Notes under the pieces: model-generated
Told to the model about the DNA's origin: nothing
Database searches by the model: none
Seen by the model: only the letters and a program-made list of their open reading frames with translations
Position numbers and translations under genes: made by a program
Shown here: positions 6,598 to 31,485 of the stretch, in pieces
Position numbering within the stretch: the stretch's first letter is position 1
How the letters are laid out: every line of letters begins with the position of its first letter
NCBI GenBank assembly: GCA_029975745.1
Contig: JARKOL010000163.1
Location: 1-38,371, forward strand
Source: Myxococcota bacterium
Lineage (GTDB): Bacteria; Myxococcota_A; UBA9042; DTJE01
Length of the DNA stretch: 38,371 bases
Reading direction: 5' to 3'

Positions 6598-8135
6598 CCA
6601 GCCGGAATCGGTCCTTCCTGCTGGAGAACACCGAGTACGCCGTGTTCGACATGACGCGCCCGGACGCCATCGACGTGCGGGTCCATTCGGCGGACGCGCG
6701 CATTCGCGTGCTGCACGGCGAGAGTCCCCTGGAACTGATCGAGCGGTTGACCGAGTTCACCGGGCGGATGCGGCCCCCGCCCGCATGGCTGGATGAAGGG
6801 GCGATTGTCGCCATCGCGCGACCTCCCCAGGAAGCGCCCGAGATCGTGGACCGGCTGGTGGCCGCCGGTGCCCCGCTGGCGGCGGTGTGGACCCAGACAT
6901 GGTGCGGTACGGCGCGGACGGTGCTGGGCGAGCAGGTGCTGTGGAACTGGGTGGCGCGTCCGGGCTGGGATGACTACGTCGCCGCGCTGGCCCAGCGAGG
7001 CACCCGCCCGTTGTGCTACGTGAATCCGATGTTTCGCGATCTGCCGCCCGAGGCGCCGGACACCACGCGCAATCTGTTCCGCGAGGCCACGGAAGGGGGC
7101 TTCGTGGTGCGCACGGACGACGGCAAGCCGTACCTGTTGAAGCAGGGCGTGTTCGACGTCGCGCTGCTGGACCTGTCGAATCCGGCGGCCCGGGAGTGGA
7201 TGCGGGACGTCCTGGTGGTCGAGATGCTCGGGGCGGGATGCCAGGGGTGGATGGCGGACTTCGCCGAGGCGCTGCCGTTCGACGGGGTGCTGGCCTCGGG
7301 CGAGGATGCGGCCGCCTGGCACAACCGCTACCCGGTCGAGTGGGCGCGCCTGAACCACCAGGCGCTCGAGGCCGCCGGCGCACTGGACCGGACGCTGGTG
7401 TTTCACCGATCCGGATTCACCAGGACGCCCGAGTTCAGTGGCATGCAGTGGCACGGTGACCACACGGTGACCTGGGATCGATACGACGGCCTGGCCAGCG
7501 CGCTGCACGGCCTGCTGAACGGCGGGTTTTCGGGAATCGCCCTGAACCATTCCGACGCCGGCGGCTGCACGGTGGTGCCGCTGATCGAACCGCCGGTCGA
7601 GCGGACGCCCGAGCTGCTGATGCGATGGGTCGAGATGAATGCCTTCACCGCCGTGTTGCGAACGCACGAAGGCAACCAGCCTGCGGTCAATGCCCAGGTG
7701 TGGTCCAGCGGTGCGTTGATTCGCCACTTCGCCCGGTTCGCCCGGGTCTATCGTGGACTGGCGCCGATCCGGCGCACCCTGTTCCAGGAGGCGTCGGCCC
7801 GGGGCCTGCCGGTGGTGCGTCACATGGCGATGCATCATCCCGATCTGGCCAGGGCGTGGGAGGTCCACGACCAGTTCCTGCTGGGGCCGGACGTGCTGGT
7901 GGCGCCGGTGTTGACTCCGTGTGTCGATGCGAACGACTGCGTGGTGAAGCCAGCGGTATGGCTGCCGCCGGGTACGTGGGTTCATGCCTGGTCAGGCGCG
8001 GCCCATGCCTTCGGCCCTGACGGCTCCGACCTGGACGTGGACGGGCCGCTGGGGCGGCCTCCGGTGTTCGTGCGCCAGGACAGCGAGGCTGCCCACGTGA
8101 TGGACGAAGTCTTGCGAGAAGTCGCGGCGTGGTAG
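6468..8135 (+). CDS. GH31 alpha-glycosidase catalytic domain (frameshifted C-terminal part), YihQ-like
   Basis: This frame carries the GH31 (beta/alpha)8 catalytic domain. The sequence LVQEQGIGRG followed later by VWTQTWCG resembles the YihQ/sulfoquinovosidase branch. The nucleophile Asp is in WMADFAE and the acid/base Asp in WHGDH; NHSDAGG follows. In YihQ an Arg in a GxRxxW context contacts the sulfonate of sulfoquinovose; the matching segment here is GEQVLWNW, with Gln in that place. Substrate may therefore differ; this alignment is from memory. The GTG at 6468 lies mid-gene and is probably not a true start: the N-terminal domain and lipoprotein signal lie in the 5830 frame. It ends 56 bases from the convergent deacylase gene. 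Confidence 0.82.
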   Translation: MPVLVQEQGIGRGEPNIAAVMEVLSPGSSGDETTTHHPVPHVLTSRNRSFLLENTEYAVFDMTRPDAIDVRVHSADARIRVLHGESPLELIERLTEFTGRMRPPPAWLDEGAIVAIARPPQEAPEIVDRLVAAGAPLAAVWTQTWCGTARTVLGEQVLWNWVARPGWDDYVAALAQRGTRPLCYVNPMFRDLPPEAPDTTRNLFREATEGGFVVRTDDGKPYLLKQGVFDVALLDLSNPAAREWMRDVLVVEMLGAGCQGWMADFAEALPFDGVLASGEDAAAWHNRYPVEWARLNHQALEAAGALDRTLVFHRSGFTRTPEFSGMQWHGDHTVTWDRYDGLASALHGLLNGGFSGIALNHSDAGGCTVVPLIEPPVERTPELLMRWVEMNAFTAVLRTHEGNQPAVNAQVWSSGALIRHFARFARVYRGLAPIRRTLFQEASARGLPVVRHMAMHHPDLARAWEVHDQFLLGPDVLVAPVLTPCVDANDCVVKPAVWLPPGTWVHAWSGAAHAFGPDGSDLDVDGPLGRPPVFVRQDSEAAHVMDEVLREVAAW

Positions 8136-8137
8136 GG

Positions 8138-8184
8138 AAGGGCGCTGCCGTGGGCGGCGCACTCCAAGGCGCCTTCGGCGCATG
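8138..8184. repeat. Palindromic intergenic repeat, partial copy C
   Basis: The short gap between the convergent GH31 and deacylase genes holds GCGCACTCCAAGGC followed by GCCTTCGGC. This matches the GCGCACTCCAAGGCCTTCGG segment of copy A, preceded by a diverged module 1 (GGGCGCTGCCGTGGGCGGCGC). The AAGGCGCCTT core is a perfect palindrome and could also help terminate either transcript. Confidence 0.55.
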
Positions 8185-12632: not shown

Positions 12633-14687
12633 ATGGCCGAACGCGACCGCACAAGCCTGAAATCGATGCAGCGCATCCGGAACCTGGGCATCATCGCCCA
12701 CATCGATGCCGGCAAGACCACCGTCACCGAACGGCTGCTGTTCGTCACCGGGCGCACCCACAAGATGGGCGAAGTCCATGACGGTGAGGCCGTGATGGAT
12801 TTCATGGTCCAGGAACAGGAGCGCGGCATCACCATTTCCAGCGCCGTCACCTCGTTCGAATGGGACAACCACGAATTCCATCTGGTCGATACCCCCGGGC
12901 ACGTCGATTTCACGATGGAGGTCGAGCGATCCCTTCGCGTCCTGGACGGCGGCGTCGTCGTCTTCGACGGGGTCGCCGGCGTCGAACCCCAGTCCGAAAC
13001 GGTGTGGCACCAGGCCGACAAGTACCGCGTCCCCCGCCTGGGGTTCGTCAACAAGCTGGACCGGGTCGGCGCCGACTTCGAGATGTGCGTCCGCATGATG
13101 CGCGAACGCTTTCCCCAGGCCATCCTGCCCATCCAGCTTCCCATCGGCGTCGAGTCCACCTTTCGCGGCGTCGTCGATCTGATCCGCTGGCGCACCCTGA
13201 CCTGGGACGGCTCGGACCCCCGGGACACCCAGATCGTCGAAGGCGTTCCCGCGGACCTCGAGGACGAGGCGCGCCAGGCCCGCGACGACCTGGTCGCCGG
13301 CATCGCCGACCATGACGAGGTCATCGCCGACAAGTACCTGCTGGGCGATGAAGTCACCGTGCCCGAGATCCTGGCCGGGCTCCGACGCCTGACGCTGGCC
13401 GGCCAGGTGGTGCCCGTCCTGTGCGGGTCGGCCCTGCGCAACAAGGGCATACTGCCGCTGCTGGACGCGGTCGTCGAACTGCTGCCGTCCCCGATCGACC
13501 TGCCGCCGGTCCAGGGACGCCACCCGAAGACCGACGAGCCAACCACGCGTCCCCACGACCCCAAGGCCCCCCTGTGCGCGCTGGTGTACAAGGTCCAGGT
13601 CGTGGACGAAGGGCGGCGCCTGACGTACCTGCGGATCTATTCGGGCACCATCGACGAGAAGGCCGACGCCTTCAATCCCGGGCGCAACATCACCGAAAAG
13701 TTCAGCCGCATCTTCCTGGTCCACGCCAAGGACCGCACGCGCCTGGAAGTCGTCGGCGCCGGCAACATCGTCGGCGTCCTGGGACTGAAGGTCACGGGAA
13801 CCGGCGAAACGCTGTGCGACCGCGGCCATCCGATTCTTCTGGAATCCATTCGCGCCTACGAGCCCGTGATCAGCATGGCCATCGAAACCGAAGTCCAGAG
13901 CGATCGCGAGAAGCTGGACCTGACGCTGCGCCGCATTGCCGACGAGGACCCCACCTTCCGTTTTCGCGAGGATCCCGACACCGGCCAGACCGTCATGTCC
14001 GGCATGGGCGAACTGCACCTGGACATCATCGCCGATCGACTGCGGCGGGATTTCGGGATCGGGGTTCGCGTCGGGCGCCCCGAGGTCGTGTACGCCGAAA
14101 CGGTCACGCGCCCCAACGAGGGCGCGGGCGTCTGCGACATCGACAACGACGAGGCCAAGGTCTTCGCGCGCCTGGTCCTGCGCGTCGCCCCGGCCGAGCG
14201 GGGCTCGGGAGGCACGGTCGAGTTGCCCGCGATGCTTCCGGGGATCTCGCCCAACCTGCTTGCCGCCGCGCGAACGGGGGTCCAGGAGGCCCTCAGGGGC
14301 GGGGTCCTGCACGGCCTGACCCTGACCGACATCGAGGCCACGGTCGTCGGCCTCGAGACCCGCGAGGGGCGCACCATCGACGAGACCGCCGTCAAGATTG
14401 CGGCGATGAACGCGGTTCGCGAGTCCTGCGGCGGCGCCGCACCCGCGCGGATGGCCCCGATCGGCGCCATCGAGATCGTCGTTCCCGGGGAGTTCATGGG
14501 CGAGGTGCTGGGCGGCCTTCAGGTGCGGCGCGGCATCATCGAGTCGATGGAGGACCGCGGTCCGGTCAAGGTGGTGCGAGCCACGGCCCCCATCGAGCGC
14601 ATGTTCGGCTACGCCACGGAACTGCGGTCGGCCACCCAGGGGCGCGGCACCTTCGCCATGCAATTCGCTCGCTACGACATCGAATAA
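12633..14687 (+). CDS. fusA: Translation elongation factor G-like GTPase
   Basis: A 684-residue, EF-G-sized protein with a full translational GTPase core: G1 AHIDAGKT (~22-29), G2 RGITISSA, G3 DTPGHVDF, G4 NKLD (~140-143) and G5 CGSA. Domain II (AGNIVGVLGLK) and domain III (SGMGELHLDII) are clear, and the C-terminus has the EF-G landmarks MGEVLGGLQVRRG and TQGRGTF. Domain IV is divergent: the usual GGRGQYGHV segment is absent and the HDVDSSE loop reads RTIDETA. EF-G moves tRNA and mRNA through the ribosome after peptide-bond formation. The missing tip motifs suggest an EF-G paralogue (EF-G2 or ribosome-rescue/protection type) rather than the main factor. The usual rpsL-rpsG-tuf neighbours are also absent. 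Start ATG 12633 follows GGGGGGA. Confidence 0.87.
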   Translation: MAERDRTSLKSMQRIRNLGIIAHIDAGKTTVTERLLFVTGRTHKMGEVHDGEAVMDFMVQEQERGITISSAVTSFEWDNHEFHLVDTPGHVDFTMEVERSLRVLDGGVVVFDGVAGVEPQSETVWHQADKYRVPRLGFVNKLDRVGADFEMCVRMMRERFPQAILPIQLPIGVESTFRGVVDLIRWRTLTWDGSDPRDTQIVEGVPADLEDEARQARDDLVAGIADHDEVIADKYLLGDEVTVPEILAGLRRLTLAGQVVPVLCGSALRNKGILPLLDAVVELLPSPIDLPPVQGRHPKTDEPTTRPHDPKAPLCALVYKVQVVDEGRRLTYLRIYSGTIDEKADAFNPGRNITEKFSRIFLVHAKDRTRLEVVGAGNIVGVLGLKVTGTGETLCDRGHPILLESIRAYEPVISMAIETEVQSDREKLDLTLRRIADEDPTFRFREDPDTGQTVMSGMGELHLDIIADRLRRDFGIGVRVGRPEVVYAETVTRPNEGAGVCDIDNDEAKVFARLVLRVAPAERGSGGTVELPAMLPGISPNLLAAARTGVQEALRGGVLHGLTLTDIEATVVGLETREGRTIDETAVKIAAMNAVRESCGGAAPARMAPIGAIEIVVPGEFMGEVLGGLQVRRGIIESMEDRGPVKVVRATAPIERMFGYATELRSATQGRGTFAMQFARYDIE

Positions 14688-14817: not shown

Positions 14818-14851
14818 TCCCCCGGTTGTGGGGGCCGAACAGGAGAGCCGT

Positions 14852-15724
14852 ATGACCTCGCGAATTTCGATCGCCGTCGTCGTGGCCGCGTCGTTCCTGA
14901 CGGTCGGCTGCCAGTGGAACAAGCTCGTGGCGGACAATCTGACCGCAACGATGGACGATCAGAAGCGGTCGTTCTACGAGGAACCGTCCGTTGCCCACGC
15001 CCGCGCCGGCGCTCCCGCGCTGCTGAAGCTGCTGGATGGGTTCCTGGTGTCCTCGCCCGACAACCCGGAACTGCTGGTTCGCGCTGCCGAACTGAACTGC
15101 GGCTTCGCGATGCTGCTGATCGAGGAGGAGGACCCGGAGTGGGCCTCGGCGCTGTACCAGCGCGGCTTCAAGTACGCCGAGAAGCTGCTGAAGGCGCGCC
15201 TGCCCGGGTACTCGGACGCCCGCAACATCGATGACCTGGTTGCCGTGCTGGCCAAGGCCGGCAAGGGCGACGTCGGCCCCATCTTCTGGGCCGGGGACTG
15301 CCTGGGCGGCTACATGAACCTGAACCGCGAGGACGCCAGCGCGTTCGCCGAGATGCCCCGGGTGCTGGCGTTCGCCCGCCGCGCGATGGAACTGGACGAA
15401 AGCTACTTCTACGGCGGTCCCCACATGTTCCTGGGATTCGCCTATGGGGCCCTGGGTGCCTCGATCGGCGGCAAGCCCGAGGACAGCCGCATGCACTTCG
15501 AGAAGTCGTTCGCCGTCACGAATGGACGCTTCCTGCTGGCGAAGGTCTACTTCGCCAAGACGTATTGCGTGCAGGTCCAGGACCGCGCGCTGTTCGAGGA
15601 GACCCTGCAGGAAGTGGTCGATGCGCCGGACGACCTGGCGCCCGAATTCCAGCTGGTGAACGCGGCCTCGAAGCAGATGGCCCAGCGGCTGCTGGACCGG
15701 ATGGACGAACTGTTCCTGGACTAG
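14852..15724 (+). CDS. TRAP transporter TatT component family lipoprotein
   Basis: A 290-residue lipoprotein: signal peptide with lipobox LTVGC, then an all-helical, TPR-like protein. The pattern (FLVSSPDNPELLVRAAEL early, YFYGGPHMFLGFAYGALG at mid-length, then a KVYFAKTYCVQVQD segment near the end) matches the TatT family of helical lipoproteins, first described beside a TRAP transporter in Treponema. TatT is thought to associate with the binding protein in the periplasm and help deliver hydrophobic ligand. ATG 14852 is chosen over GTG 14828 because AGGAGAG lies at the right distance before it. It is the first gene of a four-gene TRAP operon, with 27 bases to the next gene. Confidence 0.9.
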   Translation: MTSRISIAVVVAASFLTVGCQWNKLVADNLTATMDDQKRSFYEEPSVAHARAGAPALLKLLDGFLVSSPDNPELLVRAAELNCGFAMLLIEEEDPEWASALYQRGFKYAEKLLKARLPGYSDARNIDDLVAVLAKAGKGDVGPIFWAGDCLGGYMNLNREDASAFAEMPRVLAFARRAMELDESYFYGGPHMFLGFAYGALGASIGGKPEDSRMHFEKSFAVTNGRFLLAKVYFAKTYCVQVQDRALFEETLQEVVDAPDDLAPEFQLVNAASKQMAQRLLDRMDELFLD

Positions 15725-15751
15725 TGTCCGAACCCACGAGGAGGTGACCCG

Positions 15752-16750
15752 ATGACCCGTTTTGCTAGCGCCCTGGCCCTGGCGTTCCTGCTTGCGCTGC
15801 CGTCGGCGGTCCGCGCCCAGGAAACGTTCCTGTTGAAGGTTGCGACCGTGGCGCCGGAAGGGTCCGTGTGGCTGAAGGTCATGCGCCAGATGGCGAAGGA
15901 CATCGAAAAGGAGTCCGGCGGCACGATCCAGTTCCGCTTCTTTGCCGGCGGCGTTCTGGGCGACGACAAGACCGTCCTCGAGAAGATGAAGTACGGCCAG
16001 GTCCAGGCGGCCGGCCTGACGGGCGTCGGCCTGGGCGAGGTGCTGCCCGAGACGCGCGTCATGGAGCTGCCGTTCCACTTCCGGACGTACAAGCAGGTGG
16101 ACTGCGTGCTGAACGAGCTGCAGCCCGACTTCGAAAAGAAGTTCATGGACGCCGGCTACGTGATGCTGGGCTGGTCCGACCAGGGCTTCGTCTACCTGAT
16201 GTCGCGCAAGGAGATCCGCAGGGCCGAGGACATGAGCGGCACCAAGCCCTGGGTCTGGGACGTCGATCCCCTGGCCAAGGCCATCTTCCAGGCGTTCAAG
16301 CTGAACGGCGTGCCCCTGGCCCTGCAGGACGTGTTCGCGTCCCTGCAAAGCGGCCTGATCGACACCGTGTACATCTCGCCCGTCGCGGGCATCGCGTTGC
16401 AGTGGTACACCAAGGTCAACACCATGGTGAACCTGCCGATTACCGACGGCGCCGGCGCCATCCTGCTGTCCAAGTCGGTGTGGGACAAGATGTCCCCCGC
16501 CCAGCAGACCCTGCTGAAGACGAAGGTCGGGGAGTACACCCGCAAGCTGAACGTCGCGACCCGCAAGCTGAACGACAAGTCCATCGACGTGCTGCGCGAG
16601 AAGGGCCTGACCATCGTGACCCCGGACGAGGCCCAGGTGGCGGCGTTCCGCGTCAAGGGCAAGGAGGCGGCGAACCTGCTGGTGGGCAAGCTGTTCTCCA
16701 AGGCGCTGCTGGACCGCGTCCAGGGCCTGCTCGACGGCAAGTGCAAGTAG
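15752..16750 (+). CDS. TRAP transporter substrate-binding protein, DctP family (TatP-like)
   Basis: A 332-residue periplasmic protein with a classical signal peptide (cleavage near VRAQ) and the DctP fold: LKVATVAPEGSVW, FAGGVLGDDKTVLEKMKYGQ, MELPFHF and the C-terminal ILLSKSVWDKMSP. In organic-acid TRAP proteins a Gly-x-Lys-x-Arg motif supplies the Arg that clamps the substrate carboxylate; here the segment reads SGTKPWVWD, with Trp167 in that place. The ligand is therefore probably not a simple carboxylate, in keeping with the TatT partner. The SD AGGAGGTGA, 5 bases from the ATG, is nearly a full match to the 16S tail, suggesting high translation. Ligand unknown. Confidence 0.92.
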   Translation: MTRFASALALAFLLALPSAVRAQETFLLKVATVAPEGSVWLKVMRQMAKDIEKESGGTIQFRFFAGGVLGDDKTVLEKMKYGQVQAAGLTGVGLGEVLPETRVMELPFHFRTYKQVDCVLNELQPDFEKKFMDAGYVMLGWSDQGFVYLMSRKEIRRAEDMSGTKPWVWDVDPLAKAIFQAFKLNGVPLALQDVFASLQSGLIDTVYISPVAGIALQWYTKVNTMVNLPITDGAGAILLSKSVWDKMSPAQQTLLKTKVGEYTRKLNVATRKLNDKSIDVLREKGLTIVTPDEAQVAAFRVKGKEAANLLVGKLFSKALLDRVQGLLDGKCK

Positions 16751-16764
16751 GCCTGCCCGGGCCT

Positions 16765-16774
16765 CCCCCCCCCC
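16765..16774 (+). repeat. Homopolymer C10 tract in TRAP operon
   Basis: Ten consecutive C residues lie between the binding-protein stop and the SD (GAAGAGG) of the small-permease gene. It lies in a noncoding position, so length changes could only alter spacing or mRNA structure, not reading frame. Confidence 0.85.
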
Positions 16775-16792
16775 TTGAAGAGGTGTCCTGAA

Positions 16793-17365
16793 ATGACACG
16801 AGTGGTCGAAGCGATCGACCGCGTCGTCGCCAAGGCGGAAACGGCCGTCCTGGCGTTCGTCGTCGGGTTGATGGTGCTGCTGGCCTTCATCGAGGTGATG
16901 CTGAAGCTGGCGGGTGCGGGCGTTCCGCAACTGGCGCAGTTCAATCGCTATCTGGTGATCTGGGTCGGGTTCCTGGGCGGCGCCGTGGCCAGCTACCAGG
17001 CGCGCCACATCAATATCGACATCGTGACCCGTTTCATCGGCGGCGAGGCCGCCAGGCGCGTCGTGGCGTTGATCGTGAATCTGGCGGCCCTGCTGCTGAC
17101 CCTGATGTTCCTGCGGGTCGGATTGTCGTACGTCGGCGACATGATCGAGGCGGACAAGGTGGCCTTCCGGGGCCGGATGTTCGGCCTGAACATCGGGTTC
17201 AGGGACTGGTGGTTCTCGCTGGTGATTCCGGCGGGACTGGCCTTGATGTCGTGGCACTTCCTGGCGCGGCTGCTGTACGCCGCGGCGAACCATGACCCCG
17301 GGGATCGTTCCGCCAAGGCACCGACGGCCGAGGCGATCGCCGACACCGAAGGAGGTGCGGCATGA
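16793..17365 (+). CDS. TRAP transporter small permease, DctQ family
   Basis: A 190-residue membrane protein with four predicted helices: VLAFVVGLMVLLAFIEVMLK, YLVIWVGFLGGAVASYQA, VALIVNLAALLLTLMFL and LVIPAGLALMSWHFLARLL. The motif around ARHINIDI after helix 2 is typical of DctQ. It pairs with the large permease to form the membrane part of a sodium-coupled TRAP transporter. ATG 16793 is preferred over the upstream TTG 16775 because GAAGAGG precedes it at a workable distance. It overlaps the large-permease gene by 4 bases (ATGA), so the two are translationally coupled. Confidence 0.9.
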   Translation: MTRVVEAIDRVVAKAETAVLAFVVGLMVLLAFIEVMLKLAGAGVPQLAQFNRYLVIWVGFLGGAVASYQARHINIDIVTRFIGGEAARRVVALIVNLAALLLTLMFLRVGLSYVGDMIEADKVAFRGRMFGLNIGFRDWWFSLVIPAGLALMSWHFLARLLYAAANHDPGDRSAKAPTAEAIADTEGGAA

Positions 17366-19035
17366 TCGGCATCGGAGTGGTTGCGATCGTCCTGCTGGCC
17401 CTGCTGGGGCTCCCGTTGTTCCTGGTGATCGGCACGGGCAGCGTGCTGGGCTACCTGGACGGCGGCCAGAACCTGAAGCTGTTCTTTGCGTCGTACTACC
17501 TTGGCGTTTCATCGACGCCGATCTACATCGCCATTCCGCTGTTCACGCTGGCGGGCTATCTGATGGCCGAAAGCGGGGCTCCGGGCCGGCTGGTCCGGAT
17601 GTCGCGCGCGGCGGTCGGCTGGCTGCCGGGCGGCCTGGCCATGGTGGCGCTGATGGCCTGCGCCGGGTTCACCGCCTTCACGGGCGCGTCGGGCGTGACG
17701 ATCGTCGCGTTGGGCGGCCTGTTGCTGCCGGCGCTGCTGAAGGACGGGTACCCCGAGCGGTTCACCCTGGGCCTGCTGACGTCCGGCGGCAGCCGCGGCA
17801 TCCTGTTCCCGCCCAGCCTGCCGCTGATTGTGTATGCCATGATCGCCGGGTTGACGATGCAGTCCATCCCGGCCGATCTGGGCAGTTCCCCGCATGACGA
17901 TCCGGCCGTTGCCGCGACGGCGCCCGTCCAGGAAAAGGACGCCGCGCAGGCGGCCCTGGACGCCGAGATGGACCGGCTGCTGGGGGGGGACGACGACGAG
18001 GACGAGGACGCGGACGACGGCGTCGCGGTGGCGAAGGCCGGGGACGACGGCGACGCGGGTGAAGGCGAACTGGACGAGGGCGACGCCATCCTGGCCGAGT
18101 TGGGCATCGAGGACGCGGCCGCCGAGATTGCCGCCATCGAAAGCCAGGCCCAGGCTGCCGCCAATGCGCAGGCCGGTTCGGATTCCGAAGGGACGCCTCC
18201 CGCGGCCACGGCACCTCCGCCGAGGCGCTCCGGCGAGGTGATGCAGGTCACCGTCGATCGGCTGTTCGTGGCCGGTGCGATTCCGGGCGTGCTGGCGCTG
18301 ATCATGGTCGCGTTGTACGCCCTGTACTTCGGCATTCGGCACAAGGTGCCTCGTTCGAAGTTCTCGTGGCGGGAACTGTGGCTGGCGACCCGGGCCATGG
18401 GATGGGAGATCCCGATCCCGCTGATCGTCGTGGTCGGCATCTATGGGGGGTTCTTCACCGCCATTGATGGTGCCGCCATCGTTGCCGCCTACACGCTGAT
18501 CGTCGAGGTGTTCATCTATCGCGACATCCCGATTCGGCGGTTGCCGGTCATCTTCCGCGAGGCGATGGTCCTGGTCGGCGGAATCCTGTTGATCCTGATG
18601 TCCGCGACGGCGCTGACGAACTTCTTCATCGATCGCGAGGTGCCCCAGAAGCTGTTCGAGATCGTGCGCGCCAACATCAGCAGCCCGCTGACGTTCCTGA
18701 TCGTGCTGAACCTCTTCCTGCTGGCCGTCGGCATGCTGATGGACATCTATTCGGCGATCATGGTCGTCGTGCCGATCATCATTCCGGTCGCGTTGCACTA
18801 CGGGATCAACCCGGTTCACCTGGGGATCGTGTTCCTGATGAACATGGAGATCGGGTTCAACACGCCGCCCGTGGGCGTCAACCTGTTCGTCGGGTCGCTG
18901 GCGTTCCGCCGGCCGGTGCTGGATCTGATTCGTGCGATCCTGCCGTTCCTGGCGATCTCGGTGATCGCGCTGATCCTGATCACCTACTGGCCGAACCTGT
19001 CGCTGTTCCTGGTGAATGCGCTGGGGATCGAGTAG
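17362..19035 (+). CDS. TRAP transporter large permease, DctM family, with acidic insertion
   Basis: A 557-residue multi-spanning permease against the family's usual ~425-440. The N-terminal part (YIAIPLFTLAGYLMAESG, FTAFTGASGVTIVALG, ILFPPSLPLIVYAM) and the C-terminal part (LFVAGAIPGVLAL, GILLILMSATALTNFF, NMEIGFNTPPVGVNLFV) are standard DctM. Between about residues 171 and 295 lies a ~125-residue Ala/Asp/Glu-rich, low-complexity insertion, including GGDDDEDEDADDG and a Pro-rich end. It sits at the short loop just before the LFxAGxxPG motif. The reading frame is continuous. SD GAAGGAGGTG is strong. It ends the operon, 27 bases from the convergent HEAT gene. Substrate unknown. Confidence 0.92.
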   Translation: MIGIGVVAIVLLALLGLPLFLVIGTGSVLGYLDGGQNLKLFFASYYLGVSSTPIYIAIPLFTLAGYLMAESGAPGRLVRMSRAAVGWLPGGLAMVALMACAGFTAFTGASGVTIVALGGLLLPALLKDGYPERFTLGLLTSGGSRGILFPPSLPLIVYAMIAGLTMQSIPADLGSSPHDDPAVAATAPVQEKDAAQAALDAEMDRLLGGDDDEDEDADDGVAVAKAGDDGDAGEGELDEGDAILAELGIEDAAAEIAAIESQAQAAANAQAGSDSEGTPPAATAPPPRRSGEVMQVTVDRLFVAGAIPGVLALIMVALYALYFGIRHKVPRSKFSWRELWLATRAMGWEIPIPLIVVVGIYGGFFTAIDGAAIVAAYTLIVEVFIYRDIPIRRLPVIFREAMVLVGGILLILMSATALTNFFIDREVPQKLFEIVRANISSPLTFLIVLNLFLLAVGMLMDIYSAIMVVVPIIIPVALHYGINPVHLGIVFLMNMEIGFNTPPVGVNLFVGSLAFRRPVLDLIRAILPFLAISVIALILITYWPNLSLFLVNALGIE

Positions 19036-26737: not shown

Positions 26738-27445
26738 TCAGTTCGCAGGGTTGCCCCGGATCGGCGCACCCATTGGGCCGCCACCCGCACGCCACCGGGC
26801 CGGATAGAGGCTGCGGGCCTGCCCCTCGCGCATCAGGGCGGATGCCTCTTCCGGCCGTCCGGTCTGGCGCAGCAACTGGGCCAGGCGGAATCGAGCCGCC
26901 TGGACTTCGGGATCGCGGGCAAGCAGGTTGCGGTACTCCAGAATCGCCGCGCCGACGCGTCCCGAGCGCTCGAACGCCAGCCCCCTGGCCATCGCCAGGC
27001 GTCGGGACAGCGTGTCCAGGGGCACGCGAACCGTGTCGGAGCCGGTGTCGGGCGGCAGGGGCAGCAGGTCGGCGGCGGGGTCGGGCGTATCGCGCTCCAG
27101 GGCCAGCAGCAGCGAGATCAGCGCCAGGTAGTCGCCGGTGGGTTCCAGGGTGCGAACCCGCGCCAGCGCCTGGTCGATCTGGGCGGCGGGCGCCCGCATC
27201 GCGATGGACGCGACGGTGGACTTGAGGACCGGAATCCACCATGTCGGGAATTGCGCCAGCACGTCGCGATATGCGGCCTGCGCGGCGTAGAGGTTTCCGG
27301 AATGCAGGGCCGAGTCCGCCTCGGACAGCCGCGTCCTGGCGGCCGCGATCGGATCCTCCTGGGAGGTGGCAAGGCCGGGCGCGAGGATCGATACGAACAG
27401 CGGAATCGCAAGGGCGCGAAGGTTCGATGCGCAGGCCGGCGCCAT
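26738..27445 (-). CDS. TPR-like periplasmic protein at the end of the Mla operon
   Basis: A 235-residue protein with a signal peptide (hydrophobic ALAIPLFVSILAPGLA, cleavage near ATSQ) and at least two TPR-like helical pairs, clearest in SALHSGNLYAAQAAYRDVLAQF and ILEYRNLLARDPEVQAARFRLAQLL. ATG 27445 is preferred over the TTG at 27454: GAAGGA lies 8-9 bases before the ATG but touches the TTG. It follows the mlaD-like gene with a 5-base gap, so it is the last gene of the operon. A periplasmic scaffold that holds the Mla complex to another envelope partner is an inference. Confidence 0.72.
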   Translation of the reverse strand: MAPACASNLRALAIPLFVSILAPGLATSQEDPIAAARTRLSEADSALHSGNLYAAQAAYRDVLAQFPTWWIPVLKSTVASIAMRAPAAQIDQALARVRTLEPTGDYLALISLLLALERDTPDPAADLLPLPPDTGSDTVRVPLDTLSRRLAMARGLAFERSGRVGAAILEYRNLLARDPEVQAARFRLAQLLRQTGRPEEASALMREGQARSLYPARWRAGGGPMGAPIRGNPAN

Positions 27446-27450
27446 CGGAA

Positions 27451-28446
27451 TCAATCCTTCAGAAGCAGCTTCCAGGGGTGCCGCTTCAGATCCTTCATTA
27501 TGGCGATCAGATCGTCATAGATTTCGCGGTCGGCCAGCAGGGCGCCGATGGTGCCCTTGCCATCGACGGCATTGCGGCTGAGGGTTCGCACGTCGCCCAG
27601 GATTCCGGTGATGCCCTGGCGACCGTCACTGACGACGGCCCGGGCGTCGGTCACCAGGCCGTGGCCTTCGGTGAGGGTGCGGTCCAGGTTGTCCGCGATG
27701 GCCGGCAGACGGGCGACCACGGGGCGGACACCCCGGTCCAGCGTGTCGGACAGCGAACGCAGCGATGCGACGATACCGCGCAGGTCGCCTCCGTCGCCGG
27801 TGCCGATGGCCAGCGCCGCACTGACGCGGTTCAGGTTGCCGACGATCTGGCGGATGTCGTCGCGGTTCTCGCCGACGACCTCGTCCACCTGGTTCGCCAG
27901 TCGGCCGATGCCGTCGATGGCGTCCCGGATGCCCTGCTGGTTGTCCTGCAACAGCGCCGACACGCGGGCAATCGTCTCGTTGGCATTGGCGCCCATCAAT
28001 TCGAAGCGCATCGGGCTGACGCCGTCCACGACCTGGCCCGGCTTCAGGGGCAGCGCCTCCGGGGTGCCGGGATCGATCTCGACGTACTTCTCGCCCAGGA
28101 TGCCCAGGGTCGTGATATGGAGCCGGGAATCCTGGCGCAGCATCACGAAGGAGGCGCTGTCGATGGTCAGCCGGGCCCGAACCTGGACGGGCTTGTTGTC
28201 GCGCTCCGGGTCGCGGCGTCCCCCCCACAATTCGACCGCGGTCACCTTGCCCACGGTGACGCCGCTGATCTTGACCGGCGCGCCCGTCTTCAGGTCGCCG
28301 CTGTTGGGGAAATCCACCATCAGCGGACTGCGATCCCGGCACGAGAAATCGCCCAGAAGGATGAGGAAGGCAACCAGAAGCAGGACGGCGGACAGGATCA
28401 GCGCGCCGACCTTGACTTCCATCGATCGCAGGGGACGGTCGGCCAT
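27451..28446 (-). CDS. MlaD/MCE-domain lipid-transport protein
   Basis: A 331-residue protein. An N-terminal membrane helix (~13-33) is followed by an MCE domain (PLMVDFPNSGDLKTGAPVKISGVTVGKV...GILGEKYVEIDPG). MCE proteins form hexameric rings that shuttle phospholipids across the periplasm. About 190 residues of predicted helix follow, with heptad-like Asn/Val/Leu patterns; Mla-type MlaD is only ~180 residues in all, so this one has an extra helical tail that may extend the ring into a barrel or needle. ATG 28446 is preferred over GTG 28452 because GGAGA sits 8 bases before it. Its start region overlaps the end of the ATPase gene. Confidence 0.92.
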   Translation of the reverse strand: MADRPLRSMEVKVGALILSAVLLLVAFLILLGDFSCRDRSPLMVDFPNSGDLKTGAPVKISGVTVGKVTAVELWGGRRDPERDNKPVQVRARLTIDSASFVMLRQDSRLHITTLGILGEKYVEIDPGTPEALPLKPGQVVDGVSPMRFELMGANANETIARVSALLQDNQQGIRDAIDGIGRLANQVDEVVGENRDDIRQIVGNLNRVSAALAIGTGDGGDLRGIVASLRSLSDTLDRGVRPVVARLPAIADNLDRTLTEGHGLVTDARAVVSDGRQGITGILGDVRTLSRNAVDGKGTIGALLADREIYDDLIAIMKDLKRHPWKLLLKD

Positions 28447-28448
28447 GG

Positions 28449-29192
28449 TCACGTCTCCATCGGCCCGGCGGGATCGCCTCGGACGAACTGGCGAACGATC
28501 GGGTCGTCCGCGTCGCGGAAAGCCGCGGGCGGTCCGTCAAGCCGGATGCGCCCCTTATAAAGAAAAACGATCCGGTCGGCAACGCCGAAGATGGACCGCA
28601 AATCGTGGCTGACGACGATGACGGTCTTTCGCATGCGGTGGGCCAGGTCCCGGATCATGGCATCGATGTTCTCGCTGGCGACGATGTCCAGTCCGGTCGT
28701 CGGCTCGTCCAGGATGGCGCAGTCGGGGGACAAGGTCAGCGAGCGCGCGATGGCCACGCGCTTGCGCTCGGACGGGCCGACCTCGGCGGGCATCAGGTCG
28801 GCCTTGGAATCCATGTCGACGCGCTCCAGGAAGTCGCGGGCGGACTGGCGGGCGGCCTCGCGGGACAGTCCCTGGTGCTTGCGGATGGGCAGGGCGACGT
28901 TGTCCAGCAGCGACATCGAGTCGAACAGGGTCGGGTGCTGGAAGACCAGGGCGTACCGCTTGCGGATGTCCCGCCACCCGGCCTCGTTCAGGTCGGTGAC
29001 GTCCTGTCCGTCGATGCGGATACGACCGGCATCGGGTCGCAGCAGACCCACGGCATGCTTGACCAGGACGCTCTTGCCCGTGCCGGAACTGCCGATGATG
29101 TAGGTGATCTCGCGGTCCTTCAGCGTCAGATCGATGTGGTCCAGCACCGGATGGGCGTCGAATCGCTTGGAGACGCCGACGTACTCGATCAT
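28449..29192 (-). CDS. Mla-type ABC ATPase A (canonical Walker motifs, degenerate signature)
   Basis: A 247-residue MlaF-like ATPase. Walker A is GSSGTGKS (34-41), Q-loop Gln85, Walker B LDEP with Glu163, and H-loop His196. The ABC signature, LSGGM in MlaF, reads VGPSE (138-142, in LMPAEVGPSERKRVAIAR); the surrounding residues align well, so the change is local. Checked on the DNA: the codons are clean and in frame. It can bind and cleave ATP only if a partner supplies a good signature. The second ATPase in the operon has LSGGM but lacks the catalytic Glu. It follows the second permease gene by 4 bases. Confidence 0.92.
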   Translation of the reverse strand: MIEYVGVSKRFDAHPVLDHIDLTLKDREITYIIGSSGTGKSVLVKHAVGLLRPDAGRIRIDGQDVTDLNEAGWRDIRKRYALVFQHPTLFDSMSLLDNVALPIRKHQGLSREAARQSARDFLERVDMDSKADLMPAEVGPSERKRVAIARSLTLSPDCAILDEPTTGLDIVASENIDAMIRDLAHRMRKTVIVVSHDLRSIFGVADRIVFLYKGRIRLDGPPAAFRDADDPIVRQFVRGDPAGPMET

Positions 29193-29196
29193 CCCG

Positions 29197-29943
29197 TCAC
29201 CATCCAGCCAGGTAGGCCAGGGTCGAGATCAGGAAGTCCAGCATGATCACGACGAACGATGCGTTGACCACGGCGCGGGTGGTGGCCCAGCCGACGCCCT
29301 CCGACCCGCCGGTCGCGCGAAATCCGGAATCCGCCGCCAGGATCGGGATGGCCGTCCCGAACGCCAGGCACTTGAAGACGCCGACCCACACGTCCTTGGG
29401 CGCGGTGCCCGCCAGCGACAGGAAGGTTCGCAACTGGATGTCGAAGCGCAGGGTGCCCATCAAGGTGCCGGCGGCGATGGCGACCAGGACCCCGAAGACC
29501 CACAGCACGACCATCATGATCAGCGTGGCCAGGAAGCGCGGCACGACCAGGTACTCGATCGGGTCCGTGTTCGTGACCTTCATGGCCTCGATCTGGTCCG
29601 TCACCGTCATCGACCCGAGCTCGGCGGCAATGCCGGCGCCGACGCGCGTCGCCAGCATCAGCGCGACAATCGTGGGCCCGAACGTCCGGATCATGGTGCC
29701 GATGAAGAACCGGCCCACCTGGGTCAGGTCGGGCAGCACCTTCTGGGCCTGGAACGCCCCCTGGTACACCAGGATCAGGCCCAGGAACGCCAGGGTCACC
29801 GCGATGAAGACGACGGACTGGTTGCCGATCTGGAACATGGCATCGACGACGCGGCGGCGGGCGCGCGCGGCCGACGGCAGGGCGCGAACGGTGCGCTTCA
29901 GAAGAAACAGCGGCGATGCGATGGCCGTGGGGATTCCTACCAT
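29197..29943 (-). CDS. MlaE-family permease B
   Basis: A 248-residue MlaE/YrbE permease starting at ATG 29943; the track's 30195 start is out of the true gene. It has an N-terminal amphipathic helix and five membrane helices, with family motifs FGPTIVALMLATRVGAGIAAELG, VTDQIEAMKV, LVVPRFLA and GGSEGVGWATTRAVV. It overlaps the other permease gene by 7 bases. The two permeases share motifs but differ throughout, so they are not a recent duplication. Confidence 0.9.
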   Translation of the reverse strand: MVGIPTAIASPLFLLKRTVRALPSAARARRRVVDAMFQIGNQSVVFIAVTLAFLGLILVYQGAFQAQKVLPDLTQVGRFFIGTMIRTFGPTIVALMLATRVGAGIAAELGSMTVTDQIEAMKVTNTDPIEYLVVPRFLATLIMMVVLWVFGVLVAIAAGTLMGTLRFDIQLRTFLSLAGTAPKDVWVGVFKCLAFGTAIPILAADSGFRATGGSEGVGWATTRAVVNASFVVIMLDFLISTLAYLAGW

Positions 29944-30761
29944 GTCCACAGCACCGTCACGAAGAAGTTGACGACGAAGATCGCGATCGCGGCCGTGACG
30001 ACCGAATGGTTGACCGCGCGACCGACGCCCCGGGCACCTCCGGTGACACCCAGGCCCCAGTGGCACGAAACGATGGCGATGCCGCCGCCGAAGAAGAACG
30101 CCTTGACCAGGCCCATGACGAATTCGTCCACCAGGCGGCTTTCCAGGACCCCCTGCCAGTACACGCGCATATCGATGCCCAGAAGCGCGCTGCATGCCAC
30201 GGCGCCACCCGCCAGGGCGAAGATGTCGCCGATGCAGGTCAGCAGGACCAGCATCACGATCATGGCCAGGAACCTGGGGACGACGAGGTACGCGATCGGG
30301 TCGATGCCCAGCACCCGCAACGCATCGACCTGGTTGGTGACGACCATCGTGCCCAGCTCGGCGGTGTTGTTCGCGCCGACGCGGCCCGAGAACATGAGCC
30401 CGATCAGGACGGGCCCGACCTCGCTGAAGATCGCGGTTCCGGCGGCCCAGCCCACGATGCTGGTGGCGCCGGTCCCCTTCACGAAGTTGCCCGACGAGAT
30501 GACCATCAGGGCGCCGACGAACGTCGCGGTGGCCACGACGACGCCGACGGAACGGACGCCGACCTTGAAGAGCTGGCGCACGGTCTCGTCGTAGTCGAAG
30601 GCGCCCCGCGCGAAGGTGGACCGAAGGATGCGGACCTGCAGCACGGACATGCCGCCGACCACGGCGCAGGCGGCCAGGATGGCGCGCCCCACGTCGGCCA
30701 GGAAGCCGGCCCGGGGCGGGTTGCCCGGCGCCGCGAGTTCAGGTTGCATCGTTTCGGACAT
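29937..30761 (-). CDS. MlaE-family permease A
   Basis: A 274-residue MlaE-like permease with motifs EVGPVLIGLMFSGRVGANNTAELG, VTNQVDALRVLG, LVVPRFLA and GGARGVGRAVNHSVV. Its N-terminus is about 25 residues longer than permease B. It starts at ATG 30761 (GAAGG upstream), inside the last codons of ATPase B (23-base overlap), implying coupled translation. A heterodimer with permease B is the natural reading, as with the YrbEA/YrbEB pairs of mycobacterial Mce systems. Confidence 0.9.
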   Translation of the reverse strand: MSETMQPELAAPGNPPRAGFLADVGRAILAACAVVGGMSVLQVRILRSTFARGAFDYDETVRQLFKVGVRSVGVVVATATFVGALMVISSGNFVKGTGATSIVGWAAGTAIFSEVGPVLIGLMFSGRVGANNTAELGTMVVTNQVDALRVLGIDPIAYLVVPRFLAMIVMLVLLTCIGDIFALAGGAVACSALLGIDMRVYWQGVLESRLVDEFVMGLVKAFFFGGGIAIVSCHWGLGVTGGARGVGRAVNHSVVTAAIAIFVVNFFVTVLWTW

Positions 30762-31485
30762 CCAGGAAGACCTTCACCCTGGGGTCGGGACATGCCCGCC
30801 CGTCGGCCAGCGAGCCACTGAATATCACGCTTCCACCATGGACCACATGGAAATCGGTACACAGCAGGGCCAGGCGATCGACGTCGTGGGAGGCGACGAC
30901 CACCGTGCAGCCGGTCCGTCGCTGGTGTTCCCCGATCAACTGGAATATCCGGGAGGTGGTCACCGGATCCAGGCCGCCGCTGGGGTCGTCGAACAGCAGC
31001 AGATCCGGCTGGCCGATGGCGGCGCGCGCGACGGCGACACGTCGCTGCATCCCGCCCGATAGTGCCTGGACCGGCTGATCGCCCTGGCCCGCCAGGCGCA
31101 CCGAGTCCAGTGCCGCGGCAACCCGCTGGGAAAGGACGTCGGGCGGGGGAGGGGAGCGGTCCTGCGCCAGGGGGAATGCGACGTTTTCCGCGACCGACAG
31201 GAAATCGAACAGGGCAAGGTTCTGGAACTGCACGCCGATGCGGGACCGGACCGCGCGCAACTCGTCGGGGGCGTCGTGAGGCACCGGGTCGCCGAACAGG
31301 CGCACCTCGCCGTCGTTCGGCGCAAGCAAGGTTGCCAGAAGCTTCAGGACCAGCGTCTTGCCGGAGCCGCCGGGACCGACCAGGGCGTGAACGCGCCCCG
31401 GGGCCAGCGACAGGGTCACCTGATCCAGGACGCGGGTGCCGGACAAGGTCAGCGAGACGTCCAGGATCTGGGCGACATGATCCAC
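30739..31485 (-). CDS. Mla-type ABC ATPase B (canonical signature, Walker B Glu replaced)
   Basis: The true gene starts at GTG 31485 (GGAG 7 bases upstream), not at the track's 33456, which is a high-GC read-through. Product 248 residues. Walker A is GPGGSGKT (37-44), Q-loop Gln88, signature LSGGM (142-146), H-loop His200. Walker B reads LLLFDDPSGGLDP: the catalytic Glu is Asp167. Asp at this place is a hallmark of the degenerate site in heterodimeric ABC transporters. With ATPase A, which has a good Walker B but a ruined signature, it would form one competent and one degenerate ATP site. It overlaps permease A by 23 bases. Confidence 0.9.
   Translation of the reverse strand: MDHVAQILDVSLTLSGTRVLDQVTLSLAPGRVHALVGPGGSGKTLVLKLLATLLAPNDGEVRLFGDPVPHDAPDELRAVRSRIGVQFQNLALFDFLSVAENVAFPLAQDRSPPPPDVLSQRVAAALDSVRLAGQGDQPVQALSGGMQRRVAVARAAIGQPDLLLFDDPSGGLDPVTTSRIFQLIGEHQRRTGCTVVVASHDVDRLALLCTDFHVVHGGSVIFSGSLADGRACPDPRVKVFLDVRNDAT

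Follow-up and report, generated by a model that had tools for sequence, protein, structure and literature searches.

The direction and the energy coupling of lipid transport by Mla and other MCE systems are disputed. The phospholipid transporter of E. coli, MlaFEDB, has homodimeric MlaE and MlaF, together with MlaB and MlaC. In mycobacterial Mce1, a heterodimer of YrbE1A and YrbE1B sits on a homodimer of the ATPase MceG (PMC9882608). Veillonella parvula has a minimal MlaEFD system, whose long MlaD has been proposed to bridge the envelope (PMC10665443). A different layout of ATP sites is found in heterodimeric ABC exporters. TAP1/2 has one active and one degenerate ATP site (PMC4242082), the degenerate site of TM287/288 combines a Walker B Asp with a deviant signature (PMC5216877), and MsRv1273c carries Asp497 and Gln528 where its partner carries Glu and His (PMC12038006). 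Known degenerate sites show Asp for Glu, Gln for His and a deviant signature (PMC12038006, PMC5216877).

Here we describe a Myxococcota locus with two MlaE-family permeases and two ATPases of complementary defect. We analysed a stretch of 38,371 nucleotides (the window) from a metagenome-assembled genome (MAG) of 4.26 Mb that is 87% complete and was assigned to Myxococcota by its named relatives among GTDB genomes. Five of its genes would together make up a single lipid transporter of the MCE (type VIII ABC) class, an obligate hetero-oligomer with one consensus and one degenerate ATP site, a reading to which we give a probability of roughly 0.8. The gene set, the conserved pairing, the complementary motif loss and the canonical motifs of single-permease relatives can be read directly from the sequences.

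The minus strand carries a tight head-to-tail run of six genes, in the order FB, EA, EB, FA, one long MCE/MlaD gene and a TPR gene (Table 1). Gene calls and Pfam, which finds two MlaE, two ABC ATPase and one MlaD domain across the operon, agree with the order given in an initial annotation of this DNA. That annotation also named two non-identical MlaE permeases, two distinct ATPases and a single MlaD, and all of these hold: EA and EB, which together make up the span 29197-30761, are 35% identical, and FA and FB 29%. The start of EA overlaps the stop of FB by 23 nt. The start of EB is the ATG at 29943 (ATGGTAG), which shares 7 nt with the stop of EA; the reading frame is open further upstream. 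Only in the window's own family does the TPR gene accompany the module.

Table 1. Positions of the operon, its diagnostic motifs and neighbouring genes in the window.
Feature	Positions	Strand	Remarks
FB, MlaF-type ATPase	30739..31485	(-)	GTG start assigned in this analysis
FB signature	within 31062-31039		LSGGM, canonical; residues 142-146
FB Walker B	within 30996-30982		DD, Asp167 replacing catalytic Glu; His200 kept
EA, MlaE-family permease A	29937..30761	(-)	274 aa; Pfam MlaE PF02405, E=3e-65
EA clade-specific motif	30386-30351		GRVGANNTAELG
EB, MlaE-family permease B	29197..29943	(-)	248 aa; Pfam MlaE PF02405, E=7e-56
EB clade-specific motif	29649-29614		ATRVGxGIAAE(I/L)G
FA, MlaF-type ATPase	28449..29192	(-)	Pfam ABC ATPase
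FA signature	within 28781-28758		VGPSE replacing LSGGQ
FA Walker B	within 28715-28701		Glu163; Walker A intact, His196
MCE/MlaD protein	27451..28446	(-)	331 aa; Pfam PF02470; sole MCE gene in the set
TPR-repeat protein	26738..27454	(-)	signal-like N-terminus
NifX/NifB-like protein	31991-31506	(-)	dinitrogenase iron-molybdenum cofactor domain
GltG-like protein	26790-24772	(-)	adventurous gliding motility; AgmX/PglI C-terminal domain
TRAP transporter set	14828-19035	(+)	T-component (TAtT), DctP, DctM
EF-G-like protein	12633-14687		adjoins the TRAP transporter set

Several neighbours are listed with the operon. The NifX/NifB-like gene lies just upstream of FB, a position conserved across the window's family. 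The GltG-like gene comes after the MCE and TPR genes, and the linkage persists in most relatives of that family, which suggests that the lipid transporter is functionally tied to an energy transducer of the TonB/Glt type. Farther off, the window also holds the TRAP transporter set and the EF-G-like gene.

In an ABC dimer, one subunit contributes Walker A, Walker B and His to each ATP site, and its partner contributes the signature. Window FB has an intact signature and lacks the catalytic Glu, and window FA has the Glu and a degraded signature (Table 1). Motifs were counted over distinct sequences in an alignment of every MlaF-type ATPase found. LSGG occurs in none of 63 FA sequences, which have LGDGM (19), IGDGL (12), FGDGM (7), VGPSE (6) and others in its place, and all 63 keep the Walker B Glu and the H-loop His. 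FB keeps Walker A, the Q-loop and, in 64/65 sequences, the SGG of the signature. Its defect lies elsewhere: Asp replaces the catalytic Glu in 40/65, and the remaining 25/65 keep Glu and have Ser in place of the switch His, a residue lost to Ser or Gln in FB. Not one of the 65 has both residues intact. As controls we took 62 MlaF sequences from single-permease loci of the same genomes and of other phyla, and 56 are fully canonical. Four of the six exceptions are divergent FA/FB partners (L102, L121 twice, L123), degenerate in the same manner, and two (L206) are unrelated ATPases; with these six set aside, single-permease MlaF is canonical in 56/56. Given the geometry of the site and the complementary defects, only an FA:FB pair would yield a complete site, and exactly one; neither homodimer would be competent. 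Judged by its motifs, the pair belongs with the heterodimeric ABC transporters that have one degenerate site.

FA and FB differ in how their motifs have changed. A tree from which the motif columns had been removed requires one change in FA and three in FB; along it the FB Glu/Asp position changes at least twice and the His a minimum of three times. The change from one mode of FB site loss to the other thus rests on few independent events, and an independent-pairs test of Glu versus His loss had too few independent pairs. By family, both proteins are MlaF-like: the MlaF NCBIfam model is the top match for FB and the third for FA, in both cases below its equivalog cut-off, and the closest single-ABC-domain chains in the PDB are MlaF and MceG.

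The initial annotation had proposed a phylogeny of the permeases against MlaE and YrbE, with a recent tandem duplication lacking any fixed pairing as the outcome that would speak against it. In a tree of 109 proteins, EB forms one clade (support 100) and EA another (98, counting locus L121 as EA on the evidence of its neighbours, where a score cut-off had labelled it MlaE). Neither groups with E. coli MlaE, with the single-copy MlaE of the same genomes or with YrbE1A, which represents mycobacterial YrbE in this tree. A sister relationship of EA and EB is weak (support 87 in a quick tree). Their 35% identity and the age of each clade rule out a recent tandem duplication. PDB relatives of both are MlaE and YrbE1 only.

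The arrangement is found well beyond the window. When 110 relatives were searched with EB, a top tier of about 60 genomes matched at 39-76% identity, followed after a score gap by ordinary MlaE paralogs at about 31-40%. By a profile search, EB is present in 156/379 sampled Myxococcota genomes (119/237 of those of good quality), nearly always as a single copy. FB-EA-EB-FA-MCE is the commonest order in relatives, and 27 of 87 deduplicated loci are whole, many of the others being broken off by contig ends. The same order is found again in dozens of Myxococcota genomes, which makes the arrangement more than chance. Non-Myxococcota loci among the matches listed have a single permease and, where an Mla ATPase was seen, a canonical one.

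Where the operon is scattered, its parts are largely retained. EA and EB are adjacent in most loci, even those from which FB or FA is gone; the exception is one family (f6), with FB-EA, EB and FA-MCE at three separate places. In Sorangium and its relatives, EA-EB stay together, as do MCE-FA, and FB lies elsewhere. Loss of FB from these genomes was considered as a counter-example and set aside, since FB is clear at another place in 6/8, including S. cellulosum So0157-2; no high-scoring FB was found in the other two (G112, G117), MAGs that may be incomplete. Loss of FA in family f6 was likewise rejected, FA being found elsewhere beside MCE in 9/9 genomes checked. That one FA and one FB are kept elsewhere in most scattered-operon genomes checked, with a single MCE gene, argues for one obligate heteromeric transporter.

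No MlaC and no STAS domain of the MlaB type lies in the window, as first reported, and a search of the whole genome extends this. Its sole STAS match belongs to a fusion with another MlaE, on a different contig, so an MlaB just outside the locus is ruled out for this genome. There is one MlaC, on contig C242. Neither a free-standing MlaB nor an MlaA was found in the genome (87% complete). The STAS match is a system in its own right: at 6976-8175 (-) of contig C131 (L109), the domain is joined to the N-terminus of MlaE as an MlaB-MlaE fusion, adjoined by a canonical ATPase and an MCE gene. The genome's two other MCE ATPases, on C131 and C153, both have canonical motifs. Shorter C-terminal tails of FA and FB were considered as a reason for independence from MlaB and rejected, as they fall just ~10 residues below the controls.

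The MCE protein is conserved in length. An AlphaFold2 model (mean pLDDT 77, low beyond residue 245) has a TM helix, an MCE barrel (residues ~39-143) and then about 150 residues of helix (148-294); no C-terminal beta-barrel is predicted. The best full-length Foldseek match of the model is Mce1B (8fed_B), followed by MlaD. The model agrees with a homohexameric needle comparable to the long MlaD in MlaEFD systems (PMC10665443), and such a needle may extend to the outer membrane. It would also account for a pump that does without MlaC and MlaA.

In the machine that we propose, EA and EB would form a heterodimeric permease, with a heterodimer of FA and FB beneath it. The long MCE protein, encoded by one gene, would assemble from six identical chains into a ring and a needle of helices that spans the periplasm. 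The dimerization of FA with FB is suggested by site geometry and linkage. The consensus, hydrolysing site would bring together three FA elements (Walker A, Walker B and His) and the LSGGM signature of FB. At the degenerate site, Walker A and B of FB would face the degraded FA signature, binding ATP and hydrolysing it poorly. About one ATP would be burned per cycle at a fixed site, as in TAP1/2, TM287/288 and MsRv1273c/72c, and the pump would need neither MlaB nor MlaC. Subunit assembly, the matching of permeases to ATPases, the asymmetry of hydrolysis, the lipid substrate and the direction of transport are what we infer from the sequences. It is possible, although we hold this only tentatively, that the degenerate site holds the ATPase dimer in a partly closed state and fixes the direction of lipid flow. 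The result would be a strictly one-way pump with a trans-envelope needle, independent of MlaB and MlaC and possibly outward (anterograde), working alongside symmetric MCE systems in the same cell.

The operon could also be read as two separate homomeric transporters, EA2-FB2 and EB2-FA2, that share one MCE hexamer or are co-expressed. FB does adjoin EA and FA does adjoin EB, and FB-EA and FA-MCE can separate as blocks. However, ABC rules would leave both ATPases incompetent, FA2 with two degraded signatures and FB2 with two sites lacking Glu or His. Just one MCE gene is present, and outside family f6 the two permeases mostly stay adjacent even at loci without FB or FA. We consider this reading improbable. 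It corresponds to the suggestion in the initial annotation that two half-transporters were fused in one operon, against which it also counts that each ATPase supplies a part missing from the other, that the MCE gene is single, and that FA and FB are both kept in most genomes checked where the operon is scattered. About equally improbable is that FB (or FA) is decaying or regulatory, so that the pump runs on the other ATPase with no functional asymmetry. FB is indeed the more divergent, with a mean column identity of 53% against 70% for FA. Decay, however, would not spare its Walker A, Q-loop and LSGG (64/65), the signature that it retains is precisely what FA needs, and unlinked FB is still kept in most genomes checked.

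Least likely is that Myxococcota acquired a mycobacterial-type Mce system, with its YrbEA/B pair, and added an ATPase. Paired permeases and a long, Mce-like needle protein would suit this origin, but in the tree, where YrbE1A represents mycobacterial YrbE, both permeases fall outside its group. A Yrb-like pair does occur in two genomes of another Myxococcota family (G064, L113; G068, L118), with a divergently placed MCE gene. It groups with YrbE1A (support 95) and has a single ATPase with the canonical LSGGQ signature. That pair is a second, independent paired-permease MCE system in Myxococcota.

A single heteromeric transporter with one working site would matter in several ways. No description of an MCE lipid transporter with two ATPases of complementary defect was found in open-licence PMC papers; as far as we found, the degenerate-site arrangement, which some exporters of drugs and peptides have, is apparently new for Mla/Mce-family lipid transporters. 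The architecture would be extended to a further ABC class, in a lipid transporter whose ATPases are subunits of their own, and would be shown to have evolved independently in MCE transporters. The Myxococcota, in which it was found, form a large group of bacteria from soil and sediment. With a one-active-site version beside symmetric versions in the same genome, they would offer a built-in comparison, which could address which site is needed, how much ATP is used per lipid and whether asymmetry sets direction.

Set against the described systems, the Myxococcota locus has the marks of an MCE, or type VIII (Mla), ABC transporter: an MlaE-family permease, an MCE protein encoded alongside and an MlaF-type ATPase. 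It shares these parts with E. coli MlaFEDB, and among solved structures the single chains nearest to it are MlaE, MlaF and MlaD. It departs from the homodimeric E. coli type in its two permease genes, two ATPase genes with complementary defects and long MCE protein, with no MlaB or MlaC in the locus; free-standing MlaB and MlaA were not found in the genome, and MlaC lies on another contig only. With V. parvula it has in common a locus lacking MlaA, MlaB and MlaC (PMC10665443). V. parvula has one mlaE and one mlaF, and the Myxococcota MCE protein differs further in having no predicted C-terminal beta-barrel.

Mce1 resembles the locus in its heterodimeric permease, predicted here, and its needle-forming MCE proteins, among them the best Foldseek match. 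The contrast drawn at the outset with the mycobacterial systems, paired permeases served by a single ATPase, is borne out by the YrbE heterodimer on its MceG homodimer (PMC9882608). Mce1 combines that one-ATPase homodimer with six different MCE proteins, whereas the Myxococcota set has two ATPases, one MCE gene and permeases in clades of their own outside the YrbE1A branch. In its ATP sites the locus is most like the heterodimeric ABC exporters, in which one subunit lacks the Walker B Glu, the switch His or both, and the other has a deviant signature, leaving one consensus site. Those exporters have fused TMD-NBD chains; in the Myxococcota lipid transporter, of the MCE type, the NBDs are separate subunits. 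The likeness is therefore one of convergent mechanism and not of membership.
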